Below are positions 26,721 through 41,524 of a stretch of 64,000 nt of DNA, piece by piece. The position numbers were made by a program, and so were the translations under genes. Where the stretch lies: assembly GCA_903877385.1 (NCBI GenBank), contig CAIRDP010000054.1:1-64000 (forward strand), given 5' to 3'. Position 1 is the first letter of the stretch; each line of letters starts with the position of its first letter. The DNA is from an uncultured Bacteroidales bacterium. Lineage in GTDB: Bacteria; Bacteroidota; Bacteroidia; Bacteroidales; FEN-979. Below the pieces are notes generated by a model, which worked only from the letters and a program-made list of their open reading frames with translations, did not search any database and had not been told where the DNA came from.

Positions 26721-26792
26721 GGCCCGTTCGTCTAACGGTTAGGACGTCAGGTTTTCATCCTGGTAATAGGGGTTCGATTCCCCTACGGGCTA
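26721..26792 (+). tRNA. tRNA-Glu (anticodon TTC)
   Basis: GGCCCGT acceptor, TCAGG-TTTTCAT-CCTGG anticodon arm, GGTTCGATTCC T-arm. Confidence 0.94.
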
Positions 26793-26807
26793 CACAAAAT
26801 CAAAATT

Positions 26808-26841
26808 AAACCCTGTAAATTAACAACTTACAGGGTTTTTT
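26808..26841 (+). terminator. Terminator of tRNA-Glu
   Basis: AAACCCTGTAA-N9-TTACAGGGTTTTTT. Confidence 0.85.
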
Positions 26842-27120
26842 CTTTCCAAGGGGGCAAATGAAACTTGCTTTTTCATAGGTTCCAATTGCATTCAGGTTGC
26901 AGCCTACTAACATTACAAACAAGGATATCTAGGAATTACTTTCAAAATAATCATATCCTAAGCACCCATCTGCGTCTATCATGTTATGTTAAATACAAAC
27001 GGACTCGTTGTACTGAGGGAAGGGAAATGCCGGCTACCTGGAATGCTTGCAAGTTTGGGATACGATTGCGGCCTGGACTGCTTGCGACCATCCTGCACTA
27101 TTATTTGCAACTGAAATAAA

Positions 27121-27300
27121 CAATTAATACACCGGGTACGAGGAACGAAGCACCGGGTGTATACCAATTGTAAGAATCCGGAGCAACGGCTAAGCCTGAA
27201 CGAATAAACGGTGAAGCCGTGAGGAGCTTGCGACGAAACGGAGCGGAACCGCCGAAATGAGTGAAGTGATTAGCTATTGCGGAGGGAAGATATCTTGTGG
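27121..27300. other. Structured non-coding region with consecutive inverted repeats
   Basis: CAATTaaTACACCGGGT...ACCGGGTGTAtaccAATTG, then ACGGCT...AGCCGT; no convincing ORF. Confidence 0.5.
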
Positions 27301-27372
27301 AAAACTAAGTTTAAATTTTCAGACATTTTTATTGAAGTTTAACTTGATCTTTTTCATCGATAATATCAGTTT

Positions 27373-29226
27373 TTAATCAGGTTTATTCCTTATATCAATG
27401 GGAAAGATCACTTTAAGACTTATATTTCTTCCCATGTCATAGATCCCCGATCGACCGGTCGTATTATCCGGGTAAGGTTCAAAGTATTTTAACCTGCTCA
27501 GGTGCGACTGATAAGCCACATCAAAAATGTTAGTCACCGCCAGATGAATACTGCAGATGACATGACCATTTTTTCTTGTCACATCACCACCAATTCCTGC
27601 ATCAAATAAAGTATAACCAGGGGTTGGTGTTTCTGTATTATCAGCAATATAGGCCCTGTTCTGCGCTGCATAATACTCCATGGCAATTCTGGCATAAATG
27701 GAAGATAAACCCTTTATCCCTTTGTCGAATTCGACCCGTAACTCAGTATGTGTATGCAATGGTGGAATGAAAGGCAGGTACCTGGAACTATCAGTTATCT
27801 TAACCCCGTTTCCTCCCTGATTAATTGCATAGACGACTGATAAGGAGTTTTCAAAATGCATCCACTTGAAAAAATGAATATCGAGGCTTGCCTCTCCTCC
27901 ATATAATACGGCCTGGGATTGCTGGAACTTAAATGTTTGGTTTCCTGGTACTATGATTGAATCCTGCCCTCGCTTATTCAGGACTTTATGGTTAAAAATA
28001 TAATTGCTTATATTATTGTAGAATGCCTCTACACTAACTATAACCGGTTTGGATGTATAAAACAAGCCAAGGTCTCCCTGCAGGCTGAATTCCGGCTTAA
28101 AGTCAGAATTGCCTATTTGATACATGTTGGTTCCGGGATGAACTCCGTTAGCAGATATTTCTTCAATATTTGGGGCTCTGAAACCACGGGCAACATTAAC
28201 CTTGGCACTGAAGTTTTTAGCAATGTTGTAAGTTATTCCCAGGCTTGCCGAAAGACCTGAATAGGTATGTTTAAAGTCCGAAAACTTCTTATCAGCCCCT
28301 ACAGTATCTGGCGGAAACACCTGCATATCAAAACCTGTAGTTGGATCTGGCCTGGTAAACATCTGGTCATTCCTGAAAAACCGCATGTCATATCTCACCC
28401 CTGCGCTGATGTCAATCTTTTTAAATGATTTCTTTACAAGCAGAAAAGGCCCCAGATCAAATTGCCGGTAATCCGGAATGATGAACTCCGTGCCTTTGTT
28501 TGAATTGATCTGGTACATCCCGTTAACACCCGGAGTAATTTCCCATCCGGCGAGTTCGGGTAAATAATATTTCAGATCGTAGGTGATGGTATTTAAGTGC
28601 AGATCCAGACCGGGAGTCTCCGCTGCCTGCGGATGGCTGAATTCCTGTCGGTGATTGAACTGGTATCCGAGAATAATACCGATTTTACTGCCATCAAGAT
28701 AAATACTTGAAGTCGAGTAGATCTTATAATGCTGTATATAGCCATTGATCTTCTCAAAGATCAGCCCAAGGACCGAAGCATTGATCAATGTTTTGTTATC
28801 CTCCTGGATCTCTTCTGAGCCTTCACCAGCAAAATCATAGGCATCCAGAAATTCAAATAAGTACTGAAGTCCGCTGAGCTTTCCTGTGCGTTTCTTACCA
28901 TTGTTGTGTTTCAGGACCGTTGAGGAAATGATCGGCAATAACGCATGATCTTGAAGGTTGCTGGTGAAGATGGTCAACTGCTCAAGTTCAGTCGGCTCGA
29001 AAAGCGAGGAATTCAGATAGGGTATCTTGCTGAATAAATTTGCCATTTCAGCATCCCTTTCCTCTGACTTCCTTGCAAGAACACGGAAAAACAGGTTGTC
29101 CAGGTCATCATATCCATCAATCCGTCCAGTTTTCATAAACCCATATTCCTTATCACCCTTGTGATAACGGATAAGTTGGGCTTCCAGCAGTTTCAGGAAA
29201 AGGATCCGGTTCAGCCAGGTGATCAC
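27373..29226 (-). pseudogene. Chimeric ORF: middle segment of a type IIG restriction-modification enzyme fused in frame to the C-terminal beta-barrel of a TonB-dependent receptor
   Basis: Residues 1-163 (ITWLNRILFLKLLEAQL...NKTLINASVLGLIFEKINGY) type IIG-like; from about residue 164 (IQHYKIYSTSSIYLDGSKIGIILGYQFNHRQEF...NFSAKVNVARGFRAPNIEE...) TonB-receptor barrel. Confidence 0.85.
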
Positions 29227-30194
29227 CAGTTCGAGGGAAACATTAATAGCCTTTCTGCATAGGTTTCACCAAAAAATACCGGTTGATTCAACCGGGAGAT
29301 TTTATCCCGGGTGTCGAGTTGTAAAATAGTATTTTCCATGAGTGAGCCCGGATCACGCTGCCCCTCATTTTTGCGCTCAATGATCTTTTTGCTTCCCGAT
29401 TTTATTTCTGTTAGACCAATGATATGAAGTAGTTCGGAATAAAAGGTCTTATCAAGCGAGTTGCTGTCATTTAAAAATGGAAGCTTAAGAAGATGTTCCG
29501 GGGAAAGAACTTTAAAAAGTGCAATTAGTTTCGTGTCATCGGTTTTATCTTCATTCCTTAATGGAGTTTCATAAAGGCGGAAATCGAAATACGTAAATGA
29601 AATTTCAGAAGCGATGCCCGAAATAAAGGGTTCTGCAATTGAATTATAGAAAAAATCTGTTGTAGTTCCTGCCAGCCGGCCTTCTTCAAAGTCAGTAAAC
29701 TGTTTTACCAAACCCTTATTTTGGGCAAATGTCTTTTCAAAGACCGTTGCATCAAAAATGTACCATTCATAAACATTTGTTGCGATAAGGTGTTTTATCT
29801 CCAGGTTTCCGCCTGTAATTCTTTCCCGAAGATAATAAAGAATCAACTCCTGAAATGCTTTGGCATTCAGGTCATCCTTCTGTATCATCTCGCTTTTATT
29901 GCCTGGTTTCTTAACTTCAATCAGAACTCCGGGCATACTTTTAGAATCATGTCCGGTGTGAATTACCAGATCGTTACGGCCTTTGGTGTTGAGATAAAAT
30001 TTTGGTGAATAAAAAGTATTCTTTAAAAAATCACCCAGGTCATTTTTGTTATGTTCCTCTGATTCTTTTTCATCTAACCCATCCAATAACCCAATTAGAT
30101 TATTCTTGAAAAGTTCTATCTCACTACGGGAAGGTTTTACCTTCAGGTAGACCTTGTTGAGTGATTTTCGAGGAGTTACAGGGGAAGTAATCAT
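29223..30194 (-). pseudogene. N-terminal fragment of a type IIG restriction-modification enzyme, truncated by frameshift
   Basis: VYLKVKPSRSEIELFKNNLIGLLD...NTKGRNDLVIHTG...GVLIEVKKPGNKSEMI...ELILYYLRERI...FKVLSPEHLLKLPFLNDSNSLDKTFYSELLHIIGL; homology appears to continue in the other frame (NVSLELVITWLNRILFLKLLEAQL). Confidence 0.8.
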
Positions 30195-30311
30195 TATCGA
30201 AAAGTTAAACAGAAAACAAATTTCTACTTTATTTTAATATGCCTGTCGATATAGCTTTGGTCCTTGCTAAATTTACCATGAAAATTTAGCTGCAGAATTA
30301 AGAAAATAATC

Positions 30312-32985
<2,674 letters not shown>

Positions 32986-33008
32986 AACTATAGATAATTA
33001 CTATTAAC

Positions 33009-33069
33009 AGAGAATAATTCTTATTAAAGATTAAACAAAGATACAAACAAAAAATACGGAATTTACAAA
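33009..33069 (-). promoter_or_regulatory. Candidate promoter and PerR/Fur-box of the perR-katG operon
   Basis: TATCTTTG -7 (33036-33043, minus) with TTTG at 33066-33069; dyad AGAATAATTCT at 33011-33021 within a 7-1-7-like element. Confidence 0.55.
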
Positions 33070-33221
33070 AGGGAGGAAAAAAAGATGGCATTTGCCTGGT
33101 AAACGGCCTTACCATCATGCATCGTTTTTACAAAGATGGTACCATGCCCATCGTTTTTATCACAAGATGCAGTAAGAACCAAAATGGCAATAATGCTATA
33201 TAAACAATAGTAAATCTTCAT
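33063..33221 (-). CDS. Very short putative lipoprotein, possibly truncated
   Basis: MKIYYCLYSIIAILVLTASCDKNDGHGTIFVKTMHDGKAVYQANAIFFSSLL; lipobox; directly follows RND gene. Confidence 0.5.
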   Translation of the reverse strand: MKIYYCLYSIIAILVLTASCDKNDGHGTIFVKTMHDGKAVYQANAIFFSSLL

Positions 33222-33234
33222 TTCGAACGGATAA

Positions 33235-36200
33235 TCATGGGTTGACCTGACTTTCATTCCGATATGTCAGAAAATATAATACCGGGGTAATGAAAACAGT
33301 AATCAGTAATGACATAAACAGCCCCCCTACGATAACAGTGGCAAGGGGCCTTTGTACATCAGAGCCAACACCTGTATTTAAGGCAGCCGGTAGCAAACCG
33401 ATAATGGCAATAAGCATGATCAGGAACACAGGTTTGATCTGGACCATAGAGCCTTTAATGACAACGTCATAAAGTGAACCGGCATGCTTCTCCCTGATGC
33501 GGTTAAGATAGCTTACAAGGAGGACTCCCGACATGACTGAAACTCCGGAAAGAGATACAAAACCAACCCCTGCCGAAATACTGAAATTCATACCCCTGAG
33601 CAGCAGGGTCAATATTCCACCAAGGATAGCGAAGGGGATAGCTGAGAGCACGATCAGAACATCTTTATACTTATACCTGAAAAAGATCAACAGGGTAAAA
33701 AAGATCAGAAGCATGGTTATCGGGACAATGAAAAGAAGCCTGTCTTTAGCTCTGCGCAGGTTTTCAAATTGCCCGCCCATACTCCAGTAATAATCTTTGG
33801 GCAATTTGACCTGTTGTTCAATCTTTCTTTGGATCTCTCCTGCAAAACTTCCCTGGTCTCTACCACGTATATTCGTTTTGACAGTGATCTGGCGTTGGTC
33901 TTCGTCCCTGAAAATTATAGATTGGCCTTCACGAAGATTGATAGAAGCAACCTGTGCAAGAGGTATTCTCATACCGGTCTTTGTGGGAATTATAATTTTG
34001 CCTATTTGTTCGGGAGTGCTACGGCTTTCCTTGGTAAACCTGAGGATAATATCAAAATGACGTTCATCCTCCCATAATGAGCTAACAGGTAATCCGCCTA
34101 TGGCCATTTCCAGCACGGCATTGATATCCGAGACATTGATGCCGTATCGGGCAGCTGCAATCCGGTTAACTTCAACCACCAGCTGGGTTTGTTTCTTCTC
34201 CTGTTCAATACCTGTTTCAGAAGCTCCGCGGATATGTTTTGCAATGCCAAGGATCTTTTCGCCGTATTTTCTGAGTGTATCCAGGTTTTTCCCTGTCACA
34301 AAAACTGCCAGATCGGAAGAAGAGCCTGTTGCGTTTTCAGTTACCATATCGATGATAGGCTGGGTGATGGAAAAGCTGGCTCCCGGAAATAATTCCTCAA
34401 GTTTCTTTTTAATCTCGAGTACGAGTTCCTTTTTCGTTCTTCCTGAAACCCATGTGTTATAAGGCTGTTTGAGCTGAACCATAGCCTCAATGCGGTTCGG
34501 CCCGAACGGGTCAGTACCGTCATCATTTCTGCCAAGCTGCGTCATCACTCCCTTCACTTCATCAAAACGAGATAACTCTGACCGGATCAGTCCGGGGTAC
34601 TGATTTGCGGCTTCTAATGAAATTCCGGATGGAAGGTAAAATCTAACCCATATACATCCTTCATCCAGTTCAGGTAAGAACTCGGTTCCAAGTTTGGATC
34701 CCAGGTAAAATCCGGAGACCAGAAAAATTATTGATCCTGTAATAGCCAGTGCGGGGAACCTCAGAAGAAGAGTAAGAGTTTTATTATAGGATGAGGAAAT
34801 TGCCGACCAGATTAGATTTTTATGCTCCGGTTTTACCTTTTTACTGATATAGGAAAACAGAACAGGCGCCAGGGTAATGGCATATATCATTGAACCGAAA
34901 ATGGCATAGGCAAGTGTATAAGCCATAGGAGAAAATAAACGCCCCTCAACCCTTTGCAGCGTGAACATCGGCAATAATGCAAGGATGATTATAAAAATGG
35001 AGAACAAGATTTGCATCTGTACTTCCCTGGCTGAATGAAGGATTATATTTTTCACATTATACTGTTCATTCAGGCTGTTTTTCCCGATTGTCAGATTTCT
35101 GGTTATGGCTTCAATCATCACGATGGAGGCATCCACAATAAGTCCGAAGTCAATAGCTCCCAATGACAACAGGTTGGCAGGAATACCAGTCAGGTACATG
35201 GTGATGAAAGCGAAAAGCAGTGAGAAAGGAATTGCCAGCGCTGAAATTAAAGCTGCACGCCAGTTTCCTAATAAAATAGTCAGGATAATAAGGACAATAA
35301 TGATGCCTTCAAAAATTGTTTTGGCAACCGTATGCACCGTAAGGTTAACCAGTTCAGTTCTGTTATAATAAGTTATTACCTGAATACCTTTGGGCAGAAT
35401 ATGGTTGAGTTCATCAACTTTTTCAAATACATTCTTCATGGTACTAGAAGGATTGGAGAATTTTTTCAACAGTACAATTCCTTCTATCCCCATATTCCGT
35501 GAAACTCCCCGGGACTTATCGACATAACCGAGAATGCCGGTGGGAGGGAGGTTGCCTGTTTCAACGGAGGCAACGTCCCTGATCAGTACAGGAACTCCAT
35601 CATGGTTGTCAACAACAATATTTTCAATGTCCTCAGTCCTGGCAATTCGTCCTATTCCTCTGATATTCATTTGGGATGAACCCACCCGGATAAAATTCCC
35701 ACCGGTATTTTTATTATTATTGGTGATGGCATCTGCAATATCCTGAACCTTTAATTGAAATTTTTCAAGCTTGATGGGATCTATGATAACCTGGTACTGT
35801 TTGAGTAGTCCACCGAAATTTGCCACATCTACCACCCCGTCGGCCTGGAGCAGTTTAGGGATTACAACGTAATCTTGAATTTCCCTCAGGTAAGTAAGGG
35901 GAATGCTGTCGGGAGCCTCAAGAACATATCGAAAGATTTCCCCCATGGCCATGGTCATTGGGGCAAGTTCCGGTTCAATGCCTTCGGGCAGGTCAATCCC
36001 CTTAAGTTTCTCAATAACCAGTTGCCGTGCAAGATAAATATTGGTCTGATCATTAAAAGTCAGAGTAACAATTGACAATCCGAAAATGGTCCTGGACCGT
36101 TTCGAAATGATCCCTGGCACGGTATTCAGTGCTCTTTCAACCGGAATTGTAACTTGCTGCTCCATTTCCTCTGAAGGTAGGCCATTGGCCTGGGTGATAA

Positions 36201-36342
36201 CCCCTACCTCGTTATCGCTGATATCCGGGTAAGCTTCAATTTCCAGCTGAAACCATGCCCAGATTCCTGCTCCCACAACCATGACAGCCACGATCAATGT
36301 AACCGCCCTATGTTTGAATATAAAGTTGATGATCCTGTTCAT
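33235..36342 (-). CDS. CusA/CzcA-family heavy-metal efflux RND transporter
   Basis: 1035-aa RND; GTEFLPELDEGCIWVRFYLPSGIS, AIDFGLIVDASIVMIEAI, GGLPVSSLWEDERHFDIILRF. Confidence 0.95.
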   Translation of the reverse strand: MNRIINFIFKHRAVTLIVAVMVVGAGIWAWFQLEIEAYPDISDNEVGVITQANGLPSEEMEQQVTIPVERALNTVPGIISKRSRTIFGLSIVTLTFNDQTNIYLARQLVIEKLKGIDLPEGIEPELAPMTMAMGEIFRYVLEAPDSIPLTYLREIQDYVVIPKLLQADGVVDVANFGGLLKQYQVIIDPIKLEKFQLKVQDIADAITNNNKNTGGNFIRVGSSQMNIRGIGRIARTEDIENIVVDNHDGVPVLIRDVASVETGNLPPTGILGYVDKSRGVSRNMGIEGIVLLKKFSNPSSTMKNVFEKVDELNHILPKGIQVITYYNRTELVNLTVHTVAKTIFEGIIIVLIILTILLGNWRAALISALAIPFSLLFAFITMYLTGIPANLLSLGAIDFGLIVDASIVMIEAITRNLTIGKNSLNEQYNVKNIILHSAREVQMQILFSIFIIILALLPMFTLQRVEGRLFSPMAYTLAYAIFGSMIYAITLAPVLFSYISKKVKPEHKNLIWSAISSSYNKTLTLLLRFPALAITGSIIFLVSGFYLGSKLGTEFLPELDEGCIWVRFYLPSGISLEAANQYPGLIRSELSRFDEVKGVMTQLGRNDDGTDPFGPNRIEAMVQLKQPYNTWVSGRTKKELVLEIKKKLEELFPGASFSITQPIIDMVTENATGSSSDLAVFVTGKNLDTLRKYGEKILGIAKHIRGASETGIEQEKKQTQLVVEVNRIAAARYGINVSDINAVLEMAIGGLPVSSLWEDERHFDIILRFTKESRSTPEQIGKIIIPTKTGMRIPLAQVASINLREGQSIIFRDEDQRQITVKTNIRGRDQGSFAGEIQRKIEQQVKLPKDYYWSMGGQFENLRRAKDRLLFIVPITMLLIFFTLLIFFRYKYKDVLIVLSAIPFAILGGILTLLLRGMNFSISAGVGFVSLSGVSVMSGVLLVSYLNRIREKHAGSLYDVVIKGSMVQIKPVFLIMLIAIIGLLPAALNTGVGSDVQRPLATVIVGGLFMSLLITVFITPVLYFLTYRNESQVNP

Positions 36343-36343
36343 C

Positions 36344-37351
36344 TCAGATACCTAAGCAGATTCCTTTAAGTAAAAAAACATTGCTTGTCACTACATTCTC
36401 GCCCGGTTTCAATCCTTCAGATATTTCAATATAATCCCCGGTTTCAGTAGAAATACTGACTTCTCTTCGTTCAAATTGAAGAAGACTGTGCATAATGAAA
36501 ACATAGAATTTTGCATTTGAACTGAAGACAGCTTTTTTCGGGACCATCAGCCCCTGGTGAGGCATCTCGAACCGTACATTTGCATACATCCCAGGCCGGA
36601 TTTTCTCCTGCGGGTCAATGAGTGATAACCTGACCCGGAGCTTCCTGGTTTCCATATTCATGACTTCAGCTATCACATCAATATTCGCGGTGATGAATTC
36701 ATTGGGGAAACTGGGAAACTCAAGCATGTATTTTTGCCCTTTTTTAATTACGTTCATTTCAGATTCAGGCAGATCGCAAATCAGCCAGACCGTCCCTCTG
36801 GGTGAGTTGTTTAAATTTTCAGGATTCAAACCTGATTCCCTGAGTTTGGCCTCATTTTCAGCCAGTGAAGTTTTAATATTCAATAATTCAGCGGATGCAT
36901 CATTCAGTTCTTTCCCTGTTGCTGCCCCGTTTTTATAAAGATCATTGACCCTGTCGAAATTAAGTTTTGATGTCTTCAGCAATGTTTGATTCTGCAAATA
37001 GGAAGAATATACACTGGTAAGCTCTGGGCTATTGAAAAGTATTAGATTTGAATTTTTATCTTCTGAAGACTGGTGGACTCTCCCGATAACTGTAGCAGGG
37101 GCCAGGAAACCCAACGTGGTTTTTTTAATATTTGCAACCTCGGTAAGAAAGAGAGCCGCTTTCTTACTTCCTGATGGAAATTCAATCCAACTGCCATTTT
37201 CTTTAACCACTGGTTCATCATTGGCGGGTTGAACCACGTAATTTGACTGTTTATCACGGGAGCATCCGCATAAACATATTACAATAACAACAAGGCAATA
37301 GAATAAAGGATTGATTTTCGGTCTCATGATTATAATGAAATTAAATTGCAT
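36344..37351 (-). CDS. Efflux RND transporter periplasmic adaptor (CusB/CzcB-like)
   Basis: Lipobox CGCSRDK; membrane-fusion-protein hairpin and barrel-sandwich; SEGLKPGENVVTS. Confidence 0.88.
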   Translation of the reverse strand: MQFNFIIIMRPKINPLFYCLVVIVICLCGCSRDKQSNYVVQPANDEPVVKENGSWIEFPSGSKKAALFLTEVANIKKTTLGFLAPATVIGRVHQSSEDKNSNLILFNSPELTSVYSSYLQNQTLLKTSKLNFDRVNDLYKNGAATGKELNDASAELLNIKTSLAENEAKLRESGLNPENLNNSPRGTVWLICDLPESEMNVIKKGQKYMLEFPSFPNEFITANIDVIAEVMNMETRKLRVRLSLIDPQEKIRPGMYANVRFEMPHQGLMVPKKAVFSSNAKFYVFIMHSLLQFERREVSISTETGDYIEISEGLKPGENVVTSNVFLLKGICLGI

Positions 37352-38589
37352 GCAATTAATACTTTAATATAGCTTTGTCTGAAGTCGTATAAGGCTTGGT
37401 AATATTGGTTTTGCATTTCAAACCAGTCCCGTTCGGCTTCAAGATAGTCAAGAATCGTTGTGCCTCCTTTGAGATATGAAAGCCTGACAGTATTCAGAAC
37501 AGTCTCTGATTGCATGTAGATCAGATGATACTTTTGAAAAGTGGCTGCATTTGTTTGATATTCCATGTATGCCGACCGAACTTCATTTTGCACCCTGGCC
37601 TGGTAGGCTTTCAAAAAACTTTCCGACTGTGTGATCTGAAGCTTTGCCCTGGTAACCTGGCCCTGGTTCCGGTCAAAAACCGGAACTGGAAATTGAAGGT
37701 ATGCTCCAAGATAAGGAACTTTATTCTGAGGATTATAATTCAGACCGATTTCCGGCTGTGGAAATGCTATTGCCTTCTGAAGATCAAGATTCACTTTTGC
37801 AGCTTCGATGGCTCTCAGATTGATCAGCAGATCGGTCCTGTTGTGAAGCGCATATAAAATCGCTGAATCAAGGGTTGATGGCAGGCTGGTGCGGAATACA
37901 GGTTCAGTATCGGAGATGACGATACTGTCGCTGGTACCAAGAAGCTGCTTCAGGCTGAAAAGCTCTGAAATATATTCCTGGAGCGATTTTCGCAGCATAA
38001 GTTGATACTGATCAGCTTTTATGCTGGTTCGCAGGAATTCGGTTGTGGTAATAACCTGGTTCCTGAGCCTGATCTGGTTTACATTCAACAGTGTGTCAGA
38101 ATTAATCTTTGCCCGTTGCACAATTTCCAGCTTCTCTAAAGCAAACCATGCATCAAGCCACTGGTTGGCGACATCAAATAACATGTTCCTCTCATAATCG
38201 GAAAGATTAGCAGATTCAATATCTACGTCTTTTTCGGCTTTGTGAATCTTATATTTCCTTTGTCCTGCAACCTGAAGAATTTTTCCAACCTGGATGTTGG
38301 ATTGCCGGTTTGCCGGATCAAATGCCCCGGTGTTTTCTTCAAAACATTTACTATTTATAACCTGTTCGGCCGACAAGTTCAGTGAAGGATTAGGTCTGAG
38401 TGAGGCTGTGATGATATCTGCTTTAACAAGATCTGTATTATACTTCTGGGCAAGAAAGAATAGATTGTTCTTCCTCGCTATTACCAAAGCATCCTGAAAT
38501 GAAATGTGGGTTTGAGCATTGGTTGTGTGAACAATAACAATGAGAATAAAAAGAGCCTTTTTGAATACAATACCCGGTCGAATTAACAT
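37330..38589 (-). CDS. TolC-family outer-membrane efflux protein (CusC/CzcC-like)
   Basis: SFQDALVIARKNN, ASLRPNPSLNLSAEQ, LSYLKGGTTILDYLEAERDWFEMQNQYYQALYDFRQSYI. Confidence 0.9.
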   Translation of the reverse strand: MLIRPGIVFKKALFILIVIVHTTNAQTHISFQDALVIARKNNLFFLAQKYNTDLVKADIITASLRPNPSLNLSAEQVINSKCFEENTGAFDPANRQSNIQVGKILQVAGQRKYKIHKAEKDVDIESANLSDYERNMLFDVANQWLDAWFALEKLEIVQRAKINSDTLLNVNQIRLRNQVITTTEFLRTSIKADQYQLMLRKSLQEYISELFSLKQLLGTSDSIVISDTEPVFRTSLPSTLDSAILYALHNRTDLLINLRAIEAAKVNLDLQKAIAFPQPEIGLNYNPQNKVPYLGAYLQFPVPVFDRNQGQVTRAKLQITQSESFLKAYQARVQNEVRSAYMEYQTNAATFQKYHLIYMQSETVLNTVRLSYLKGGTTILDYLEAERDWFEMQNQYYQALYDFRQSYIKVLIACNLISL

Positions 38590-39336
38590 AGTTCCTCAAA
38601 ATTATTATTGAAAAGATGTTTTTTGACTGTCTGGTAATCATCGTTAGCAGGCAATCCTGTCTGCAACATTTTATATTATGTTTCTGGAAGGAAGATAACC
38701 TCGGGTCAAAAATAGAGAATGTGTGATAATGATTCCGTTTTCTGAATAGTGCGAATGTTGGTTCATAACCGAATTCATGATCAACCAACACATAGCGGGA
38801 AGGATTATAATCGAAACCCAGTTATTTCTTCTGAGAACGTTCATCTGCTATTTTAGATCGCTTCAAAGGTACAAAATGCAGCAATACTAAATGATCCCGA
38901 GATAGTTAATACAGTAGATATGAAATGAATCCTTTCACCTCGATTTTCAGAGTAAAAAAACATTCAAGCCTGAGCCGGCTTATGCTTTGGGTCGTATTCA
39001 ATAAATTTTCGATGGTTTAAGATTCCCTGTAAATTCGCTGCAATCGCTGTAAATGTGCAAACTACTGTAAAGTAAACTGCATATATATAATATGGTTCGA
39101 TGCTGATATTCAAAATGTCAGCCTTTGTTATATTTTTGGTACAATCCGGGTTCATCATTTGTTCACTATCCAGGGCTTACAGGATGATTCAATAATGAGG
39201 ATATACCCTGTGCAGGCTGTCGATAAGAGCTTGAGTAATGGAGTTTTTCGGAAAGTTTTTTGACCCTCCAATATTAATACACAATATTAATTTCTTATAT
39301 TTGAGAAATACTATTTTTGTACTAAATAATGGTTAT

Positions 39337-40737
39337 ATGAGAAAGTTGATCATTCTTGCCATGATTGTAAGCCTGTCGTTTTCCCAAGCCCTTGCCCAGA
39401 AGGAAGGCAATATCTGGTATTTCGGGAATCATGCAGGACTCAATTTTAATAATGACACCGTGCTGGCTCTGCAGAACAGTGCGATGTGGGATAATGACAA
39501 TTCAAGCACTGTCTGCAATTCTGCCGGACAACTGCTTTTTTACACCAACTCCGACACCGTCTGGAACAAGTTGCATAAGGTCATGCTTAACGGGACTGAT
39601 CTCGCCGGCAGCATTACTTCAGGGCAATGTGCAGTCATAGTACCACAACCGGGTACAAGCAAGTATTTTATCTTCACAAATGCTCCTTTCCTTTCTGACC
39701 AGGGCTTGAGTTTCTCTGTCGTCGACATGGCCGAAGATAACGGCAACGGAGCTGTGATCATAAAAAATTTCCAACTGTTCCCGTATACGACAGAAAAACT
39801 TGACGCCATATACAACCAGTCGGATGATTCGTACTGGGTAATCACGCATCCTTTTGAATCCGGCTATTATTTTGTTTATAAATTGACTTCAAACGGCTTG
39901 TTGATTCCGCCTGAAATAAGTGATCCCTGTGCCCTGATGTCGGGAGGAAACCCCTATGGCTACAATGCCATAGGACAGATGACCGTTTCGCCCGACGGGC
40001 AAATGATTGCCTCGGGCGTGCTAAGCGACGGGTTTATCGAATTATGTGATTTTAACATGGCTAACGGTCATATATCAAACAGCAGGATAATTCCAGGTTT
40101 TCAAAATCCCTGGGGGATTGCTTTTTCCCCTGACAGCAAGATGCTATATGCCACAAGGTGGTGGACCGACAATGTATTCGTGTTTAACCTCTCGGATACA
40201 TCGCTGTCGGCAATAATTGCAAGCGGGATGTTAATAGGCCATGCTACTTCCTCAAACGCTTACAATTACCAGGCAGGGTACATGCAACTTGGACCCGATA
40301 ACAGGATCTACATATCGAAATATGAATCGCATTATCTGGCGGTAATAAATCATCCCAGCATCTACGGCACGGGATGCGGTTTCGTGGACAACGGGATGTA
40401 CCTGGGAACAAAAACAAATACTTCCGGACTTTCCAGGGTTCCTGCAAGGCCATCGTTTCCTGTTTCCGTCCCCCCTCAGAATAACACAAACATGTCCATA
40501 AGAATATGTCCAAATCCCTCCAATGGCAATTTTCAATTGTATTGGCCCGCTAGGACTTCAGGTTCGGAATACACACTGGAAATATCCGACTTGCCTGGAA
40601 AGATTATTGTAAGAGAAAAAATTCAGTACTTTTCACCTGCCGCATTATCATTCCCTCAATTAGTTCCCGGCATCTATAATCTCAGAATCTGGAACAATAA
40701 GGAGGTCTTTACACAAAAAATCAGTATCGTCCCTTAA
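39337..40737 (+). CDS. T9SS type A sorting domain-containing beta-propeller-like protein
   Basis: Signal peptide; WYFGNHAGLNFNN; ISPDSKMLYAT-like repeats; C-terminal ICPNPSNGNFQLYW...LPGIYNLRIWNNKEVFTQKISIV. Confidence 0.85.
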   Translation: MRKLIILAMIVSLSFSQALAQKEGNIWYFGNHAGLNFNNDTVLALQNSAMWDNDNSSTVCNSAGQLLFYTNSDTVWNKLHKVMLNGTDLAGSITSGQCAVIVPQPGTSKYFIFTNAPFLSDQGLSFSVVDMAEDNGNGAVIIKNFQLFPYTTEKLDAIYNQSDDSYWVITHPFESGYYFVYKLTSNGLLIPPEISDPCALMSGGNPYGYNAIGQMTVSPDGQMIASGVLSDGFIELCDFNMANGHISNSRIIPGFQNPWGIAFSPDSKMLYATRWWTDNVFVFNLSDTSLSAIIASGMLIGHATSSNAYNYQAGYMQLGPDNRIYISKYESHYLAVINHPSIYGTGCGFVDNGMYLGTKTNTSGLSRVPARPSFPVSVPPQNNTNMSIRICPNPSNGNFQLYWPARTSGSEYTLEISDLPGKIIVREKIQYFSPAALSFPQLVPGIYNLRIWNNKEVFTQKISIVP

Positions 40738-40819
40738 TACGAAAATCCAAGGTATGAACCCCTGGGCAAGCCCAGATTCCAGATTCAGCTGCAAGCTGAG
40801 GGGAATTTACCTGAAGCGG

Positions 40820-41524
40820 TTAAAGTTTCCCGTTCGGTCCTATTTCATCCGCCTGGAAGCGGAAACCGATGCGCTTGCCTGTCCTTATCGACATTGAATC
40901 AAGCTGGGATTGCATTTCCTGCTGGGTAACTTCTTTGAGGTCATCGAAAGGCGGTGTGAGAAGATCGAAGTTGATGGTATATAAAATGCTGGAATAAATT
41001 ACCGAACGGATTGTTTTCAGGTTAAGCCTCGCATGAGGGAAGTCATTATAAGGCATTCCTACTTCACGCTTGCCTTCAAGGAAATAATGCAATTCCCTGT
41101 TGACAAATAATCTTCCGATCAGATATCCCAGATCATTCGGGCGGTTGTACTTAAAGGAATCTGAAAGAAAATTAAAGATCATGATATTCCCGCAATAGGA
41201 CCTGAGTTTATCCTGCCTTATATAATCGGTCTTCATAACCTTATGATCGCGGGGGAATTCAAAGACATTGGTATGCATCATGAATATCAGGATGTCGGAT
41301 CCAAACCTTAGTTCAAACTGGAAATCCCCCCTGTCCCTGAATTCAAAAAGCAAGGGATATTTTGTTTTGCCAACATTTGCCTGATTCCTGCTTATGAATC
41401 CCTCCGACTCCGTTTTAAATTGCCCGAATACCTCAAGGGTTTTATGATAAACTTCCTGCTTTAAGGAGGCTTTTCGTATAAATGATTTTACCAATTCGGA
41501 AGGTTTGGTGAGGTCCTGGTCCAT
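40820..41524 (-). CDS. Conserved hypothetical protein
   Basis: 234-aa ORF without recognised motif. Confidence 0.7.
   Translation of the reverse strand: MDQDLTKPSELVKSFIRKASLKQEVYHKTLEVFGQFKTESEGFISRNQANVGKTKYPLLFEFRDRGDFQFELRFGSDILIFMMHTNVFEFPRDHKVMKTDYIRQDKLRSYCGNIMIFNFLSDSFKYNRPNDLGYLIGRLFVNRELHYFLEGKREVGMPYNDFPHARLNLKTIRSVIYSSILYTINFDLLTPPFDDLKEVTQQEMQSQLDSMSIRTGKRIGFRFQADEIGPNGKL

Follow-up and report, generated by a model that had tools for sequence, protein, structure and literature searches.

The open reading frame (ORF) at positions 27373-29226 (minus strand) of the 64,000-nt window, meaning the whole stretch of DNA from an uncultured Bacteroidales bacterium that was analysed, is most likely a fusion pseudogene made from the remains of two dead genes by illegitimate deletion or rearrangement within a variable region (probability roughly 0.86). 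Its 617 residues, read from a GTG start, combine part of a type IIG restriction enzyme with the C-terminal beta-barrel part of a TonB-dependent receptor, and the sequence suggests that a working hybrid protein is almost certainly absent. Automatic annotation would name the ORF after one half or the other, as a restriction protein or as a TonB-dependent receptor; both names would be wrong.

Residues 1-148 of the fused ORF match positions 81-228 of DUF7814 (Pfam, E = 1.6e-62), while residues 179-566 match positions 102-435 of the 436-position TonB_dep_Rec barrel profile (PF00593, E = 5e-35). Searched alone, residues 1-163 and 164-617 fell into distinct families, each retaining its own Pfam matches only, and additional stop codons were found in neither half. 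The ORF list and Pfam therefore agree with an earlier note on this DNA as to the ORF, its strand, its length and its two unlike halves. Pfam and the relatives also support that note's reading of residues 1-163 as the type IIG region that precedes the methyltransferase: these residues make up the second two thirds of DUF7814, and the continuation that the note expected after residue 163 is real, the sequence in intact relatives of the type IIG gene being ...KINGYKDGSFFTPGFIT.

What the earlier note overlooked is the ORF directly upstream, at 29223-30194 (minus strand; 323 aa), which is the start of the same type IIG gene, severed by a one-base deletion. This front fragment comprises the whole of DUF7149 and positions 1-73 of DUF7814 (Pfam), matches positions 9-255 of REase_MTase_IIG (PADLOC) and is ~70-83% identical to intact type IIG genes of family members. 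The second fragment, at 28738-29226 (minus strand), covers DUF7814 positions 81-228, ends ...LGLIFEKINGY and shares 88% identity with L078, the nearest intact gene; in the Pfam search, DUF7814 is accordingly split at profile position 73/81 over two reading frames. Pairwise alignment with sequences in seven loci, equivalent to five independent genes (L157/L158 apparently duplicate the L078/L079 records), found the window one base short relative to all intact type IIG genes compared, placing the deletion between 29245 and 29244 (site 29230-29250, minus strand). The front ORF ends at the frameshift stop, a TGA that overlaps the GTG start of the fused ORF (GTGA). Joined to fused-ORF residues 1-163, it makes up the first ~480 residues of a single type IIG enzyme, in two frames, and PADLOC classes each fragment, like the intact protein, as type IIG. 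Among the aligned records, L079 (SACF01000015.1) is titled Alphaproteobacteria, yet over the type IIG stretch it seems not to differ from L158, which comes from G061, a genome of this Bacteroidales family; the public name of L079 is probably wrong.

The DUF7149 and DUF7814 N-terminal region of the enzyme is thus present, though split between two frames. The Eco57I/N6_Mtase methyltransferase domain is absent from the locus, being found by Pfam in the intact paralogues only, and Pfam finds no TaqI_C target-recognition domain at the locus. The restriction gene is broken twice, by the frameshift near 29244 and by the missing methyltransferase and specificity parts, and is therefore dead twice over. 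The same genome holds two intact type IIG paralogues of 1206 and 1267 residues, which, in common with the other intact relatives, read KDGSFFTPGFIT and continue into the Eco57I methylase and then the TaqI_C specificity domain. An intact paralogue at L050:3372-9478 adjoins an AlbA_2/Schlafen-type ATP-binding protein and an ORF without a PADLOC match, in what resembles a defence-like cluster.

The receptor half (27376-28737, minus strand) contributes 454 residues, which align with the C-terminal part of an intact receptor from a related genome, G026 (L047), at 84% identity over the matched length. That orthologue (contig PLMO01000171.1, L047/L075) has 829 residues, with a carboxypeptidase-regulatory-like domain, a plug at 132-236 and a barrel. 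The receptor half lacks the signal peptide, the carboxypeptidase-regulatory-like domain, the plug (found by Pfam in the G026 orthologue but not in the fused ORF) and approximately the first 135 barrel residues. Domain search of the locus thus bears out the proposed loss of both the methyltransferase/target-recognition half and the receptor N-terminus. The best named subfamily for the receptor half is the heme/hemoglobin receptor (NCBIfam TIGR01785), a weak match below the curated cut-off. No second copy of the receptor is present in the genome, where the best paralogue is 37-45% identical.

No homologue carrying both halves was found in 44 family genomes or among the best 80 loci of a GTDB scan, and the possibility of a true protein family, which would show as full-length homologues with the fused architecture, therefore did not materialise in these sets. 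In the family genomes, a 200-residue query across the joint returned ~30 type IIG matches, all ending at or before the joint, and ~25 TonB-receptor matches, each starting within ~15 residues of the joint or further in. The best 80 GTDB loci cover either residues 1-163 or ~158-163 onward; in loci longer than 6 kb, type IIG matches end at residue 163 (72 of 72) and TonB matches start at the first residue past it (7 of 7). Two apparent joint-spanning homologues, L114 and L126 (query 2-203), were rejected on alignment, being ordinary KDGSFFTPGFIT type IIG genes whose match runs past the joint by chance. Intact parents do occur in relatives, separately, and in none of the loci longer than 6 kb that were compared, many with 10-kb flanks, are type IIG and TonB genes neighbours. 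Within the genome itself, the orphan methyltransferase half is not found elsewhere (only the two intact paralogues, at 82-83%), nor is the orphan receptor N-half (only a 45% paralogue). A search of the literature on type IIG gene decay, on fusions at microhomology and on DUF7149 found nothing specific.

Neither half shows an excess of amino-acid change relative to intact genes in pairwise or outgroup-polarised counts. The latter assign 16.5 nonsynonymous and 50.5 synonymous changes to the chimera branch in the TonB half (17 and 55 in G026), and 4 and 27 to the chimera branch in the second type IIG fragment (8 and 23 in the intact relative), although synonymous sites are saturated and the method is correspondingly coarse. 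Since neither half departs from intact relatives in its pattern of substitutions, the breaks appear recent, and on a plain reading both genes may have been intact until not long ago. Alternatively, the unrelaxed look of both coding halves could reflect selection on a functional fusion or a translationally coupled pair, in which the overlapping stop and start (GTGA) would link the 323-aa and 617-aa ORFs and the second product would have a role; the restriction fragment or the cytoplasmic barrel fragment might, for instance, be under selection as a regulatory peptide or decoy. We regard this as extremely unlikely. Because the export signal, the plug and the first part of the barrel are missing, with type IIG sequence preceding the barrel, the barrel can be neither delivered nor closed; the methyltransferase and specificity parts are lost; the front ORF stops just past the point where loss of one base disrupts a conserved gene; and none of the homologues searched shares the architecture. 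The earlier note had doubted a functional fusion because it saw no export signal, and that doubt is now strengthened by the frameshifted type IIG gene and the lack of a homologous architecture.

The fusion junction lies at 28737-28739 (minus strand), close to the switch at about 28735-28745 proposed before. From the upstream side, DNA similarity to type IIG genes persists as far as 28737-28739; from the opposite side, that to the G026 receptor extends to 28739. In the joint, GGCTATATACAGCAT, GGCTATA is common with the type IIG gene L078 and ATATACAG with the G026 receptor, and the short homology sought at the junction amounts to the 3 bp shared by these closest parents (ATA, 28739-28737), an approximate figure because relatives ~70-77% identical in DNA stand in for the true parental alleles. 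By a rough reckoning, about one joint in twenty would show an overlap of at least 3 bp by chance alone.

A joint of this kind could also have been created by the assembler or by chimeric reads, from fragments of different places or organisms. The draft genome is split over 67 contigs, its contamination is estimated at 0.94%, and the open frame without extra stops in either half would be consistent with such an artefact. Nevertheless, misassembly is improbable because an assembler would need to join on ~3 bp, which is far below what it requires. Furthermore, the orphan halves are absent from the remainder of a 98%-complete assembly, the contig is 283 kb long with both flanks of the surrounding region syntenic with sister species, and an independent frameshift already breaks the type IIG half. 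Between the two origins envisaged in the earlier note, a frame-preserving deletion or illegitimate recombination is supported by the separate intact parents, the lack of a fused homologue, the 3-bp overlap and the frameshift, whereas an assembly chimera is disfavoured.

The fusion is part of a 14-kb region (26794-40844) that synteny shows to be missing or replaced in sister species. A tRNA-Glu (TTC) gene at 26721-26793 (plus strand) forms the left border, and the variable region spans from this gene, which is the only structured RNA found in the region, to the gene at 40820. The distance between the tRNA-Glu and the sequence that corresponds to window position 40845 onward is 65 bp in G001, 2.4 kb in G007, 8.5 kb in G002 and about 15 kb in G003. 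In addition to the fusion, the cargo here includes katG, a Fur/PerR-like regulator, a CusA-type RND efflux set and a T9SS-sorted protein. Sister species carry sensor kinases, or an ABC transporter with phospholipase-D-like and glutamate-decarboxylase-like genes, or nearly nothing (names assigned by eye). Gene debris is to be expected in a region this variable. KatG and the Fur/PerR-like regulator occupy 30312-32985, with GC up to 0.53 within katG; none of the seven other genus members examined yields a match to KatG, and this segment was likely acquired.

A ~310-bp interspersed repeat at 26977-27286 (plus strand) adjoins the fusion, 87 bp beyond the fused ORF. The repeat has conserved ends (ATcATGTTATGTTAA ... 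TTGCGGAG) with hairpin-like sequence inside, and occurs in five copies in this genome and in further copies in three of seven sister species; outside the genus it has one short, weak match only, and it has no Rfam match. Its dispersal and proximity, together with gene content that is unlike in each sister species, could point to a mobile element driving insertion and loss in steps, for instance through recombination between repeat copies, instead of one deletion. However, the joint itself is free of repeats, and the region's annotated genes include no recognised transposase or integrase, which leaves this route with little probability.

Under the preferred reading, a fusion pseudogene of two dead genes, the ancestral locus would have carried two minus-strand genes, one for a type IIG enzyme (DUF7149-DUF7814-Eco57I methylase-TaqI_C) and one for a TonB-dependent receptor, and DNA from the middle of the former to the middle of the latter would have been lost. 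If the genes lay in tandem, this loss would have been at least ~3.3 kb (~720 codons of the type IIG gene and 375 of the receptor, plus whatever intervened). Illegitimate recombination across ~3 bp may then have joined the ends, with the frame retained by a one-in-three chance. A separate one-base deletion frameshifts the type IIG gene ~0.5 kb ahead of the joint. Because of this frameshift, translation from the normal start cannot run on into the fused frame. The analysis shows the two halves, their joint, the frameshift, a genome and relatives free of the missing halves and of the fused architecture respectively, and a variable setting; the former neighbourhood of the genes, a simple deletion, the order of the two lesions and a lack of function are what we infer.

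Compared with intact relatives, the locus carries disabling lesions of the kind that define a pseudogene, namely the one-base deletion and a double truncation. It offers a clean example of a decaying restriction gene and of an in-frame chimera arising by chance where a variable region borders a tRNA gene, though its significance beyond annotation is slight, and the process appears to be ordinary genome decay. Among known systems, the locus resembles type IIG enzymes with the DUF7149-DUF7814-Eco57I-TaqI_C order (PADLOC REase_MTase_IIG, PDLC03612) over their first ~480 residues, but is frameshifted near 29244 and ends before the methyltransferase and target-recognition parts. It resembles heme/hemoglobin-like TonB-dependent receptors, represented by the G026 orthologue, in its 454 C-terminal residues, but unlike that intact receptor the fused ORF lacks the N-terminal parts through ~135 barrel residues. 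While it differs from other fusion pseudogenes formed by illegitimate deletion between neighbours in that the frame was apparently kept by chance and the ancestral neighbour order was not observed, it shares with them a short overlap at the joint, truncation of both genes and an absence of relatives with the same architecture.
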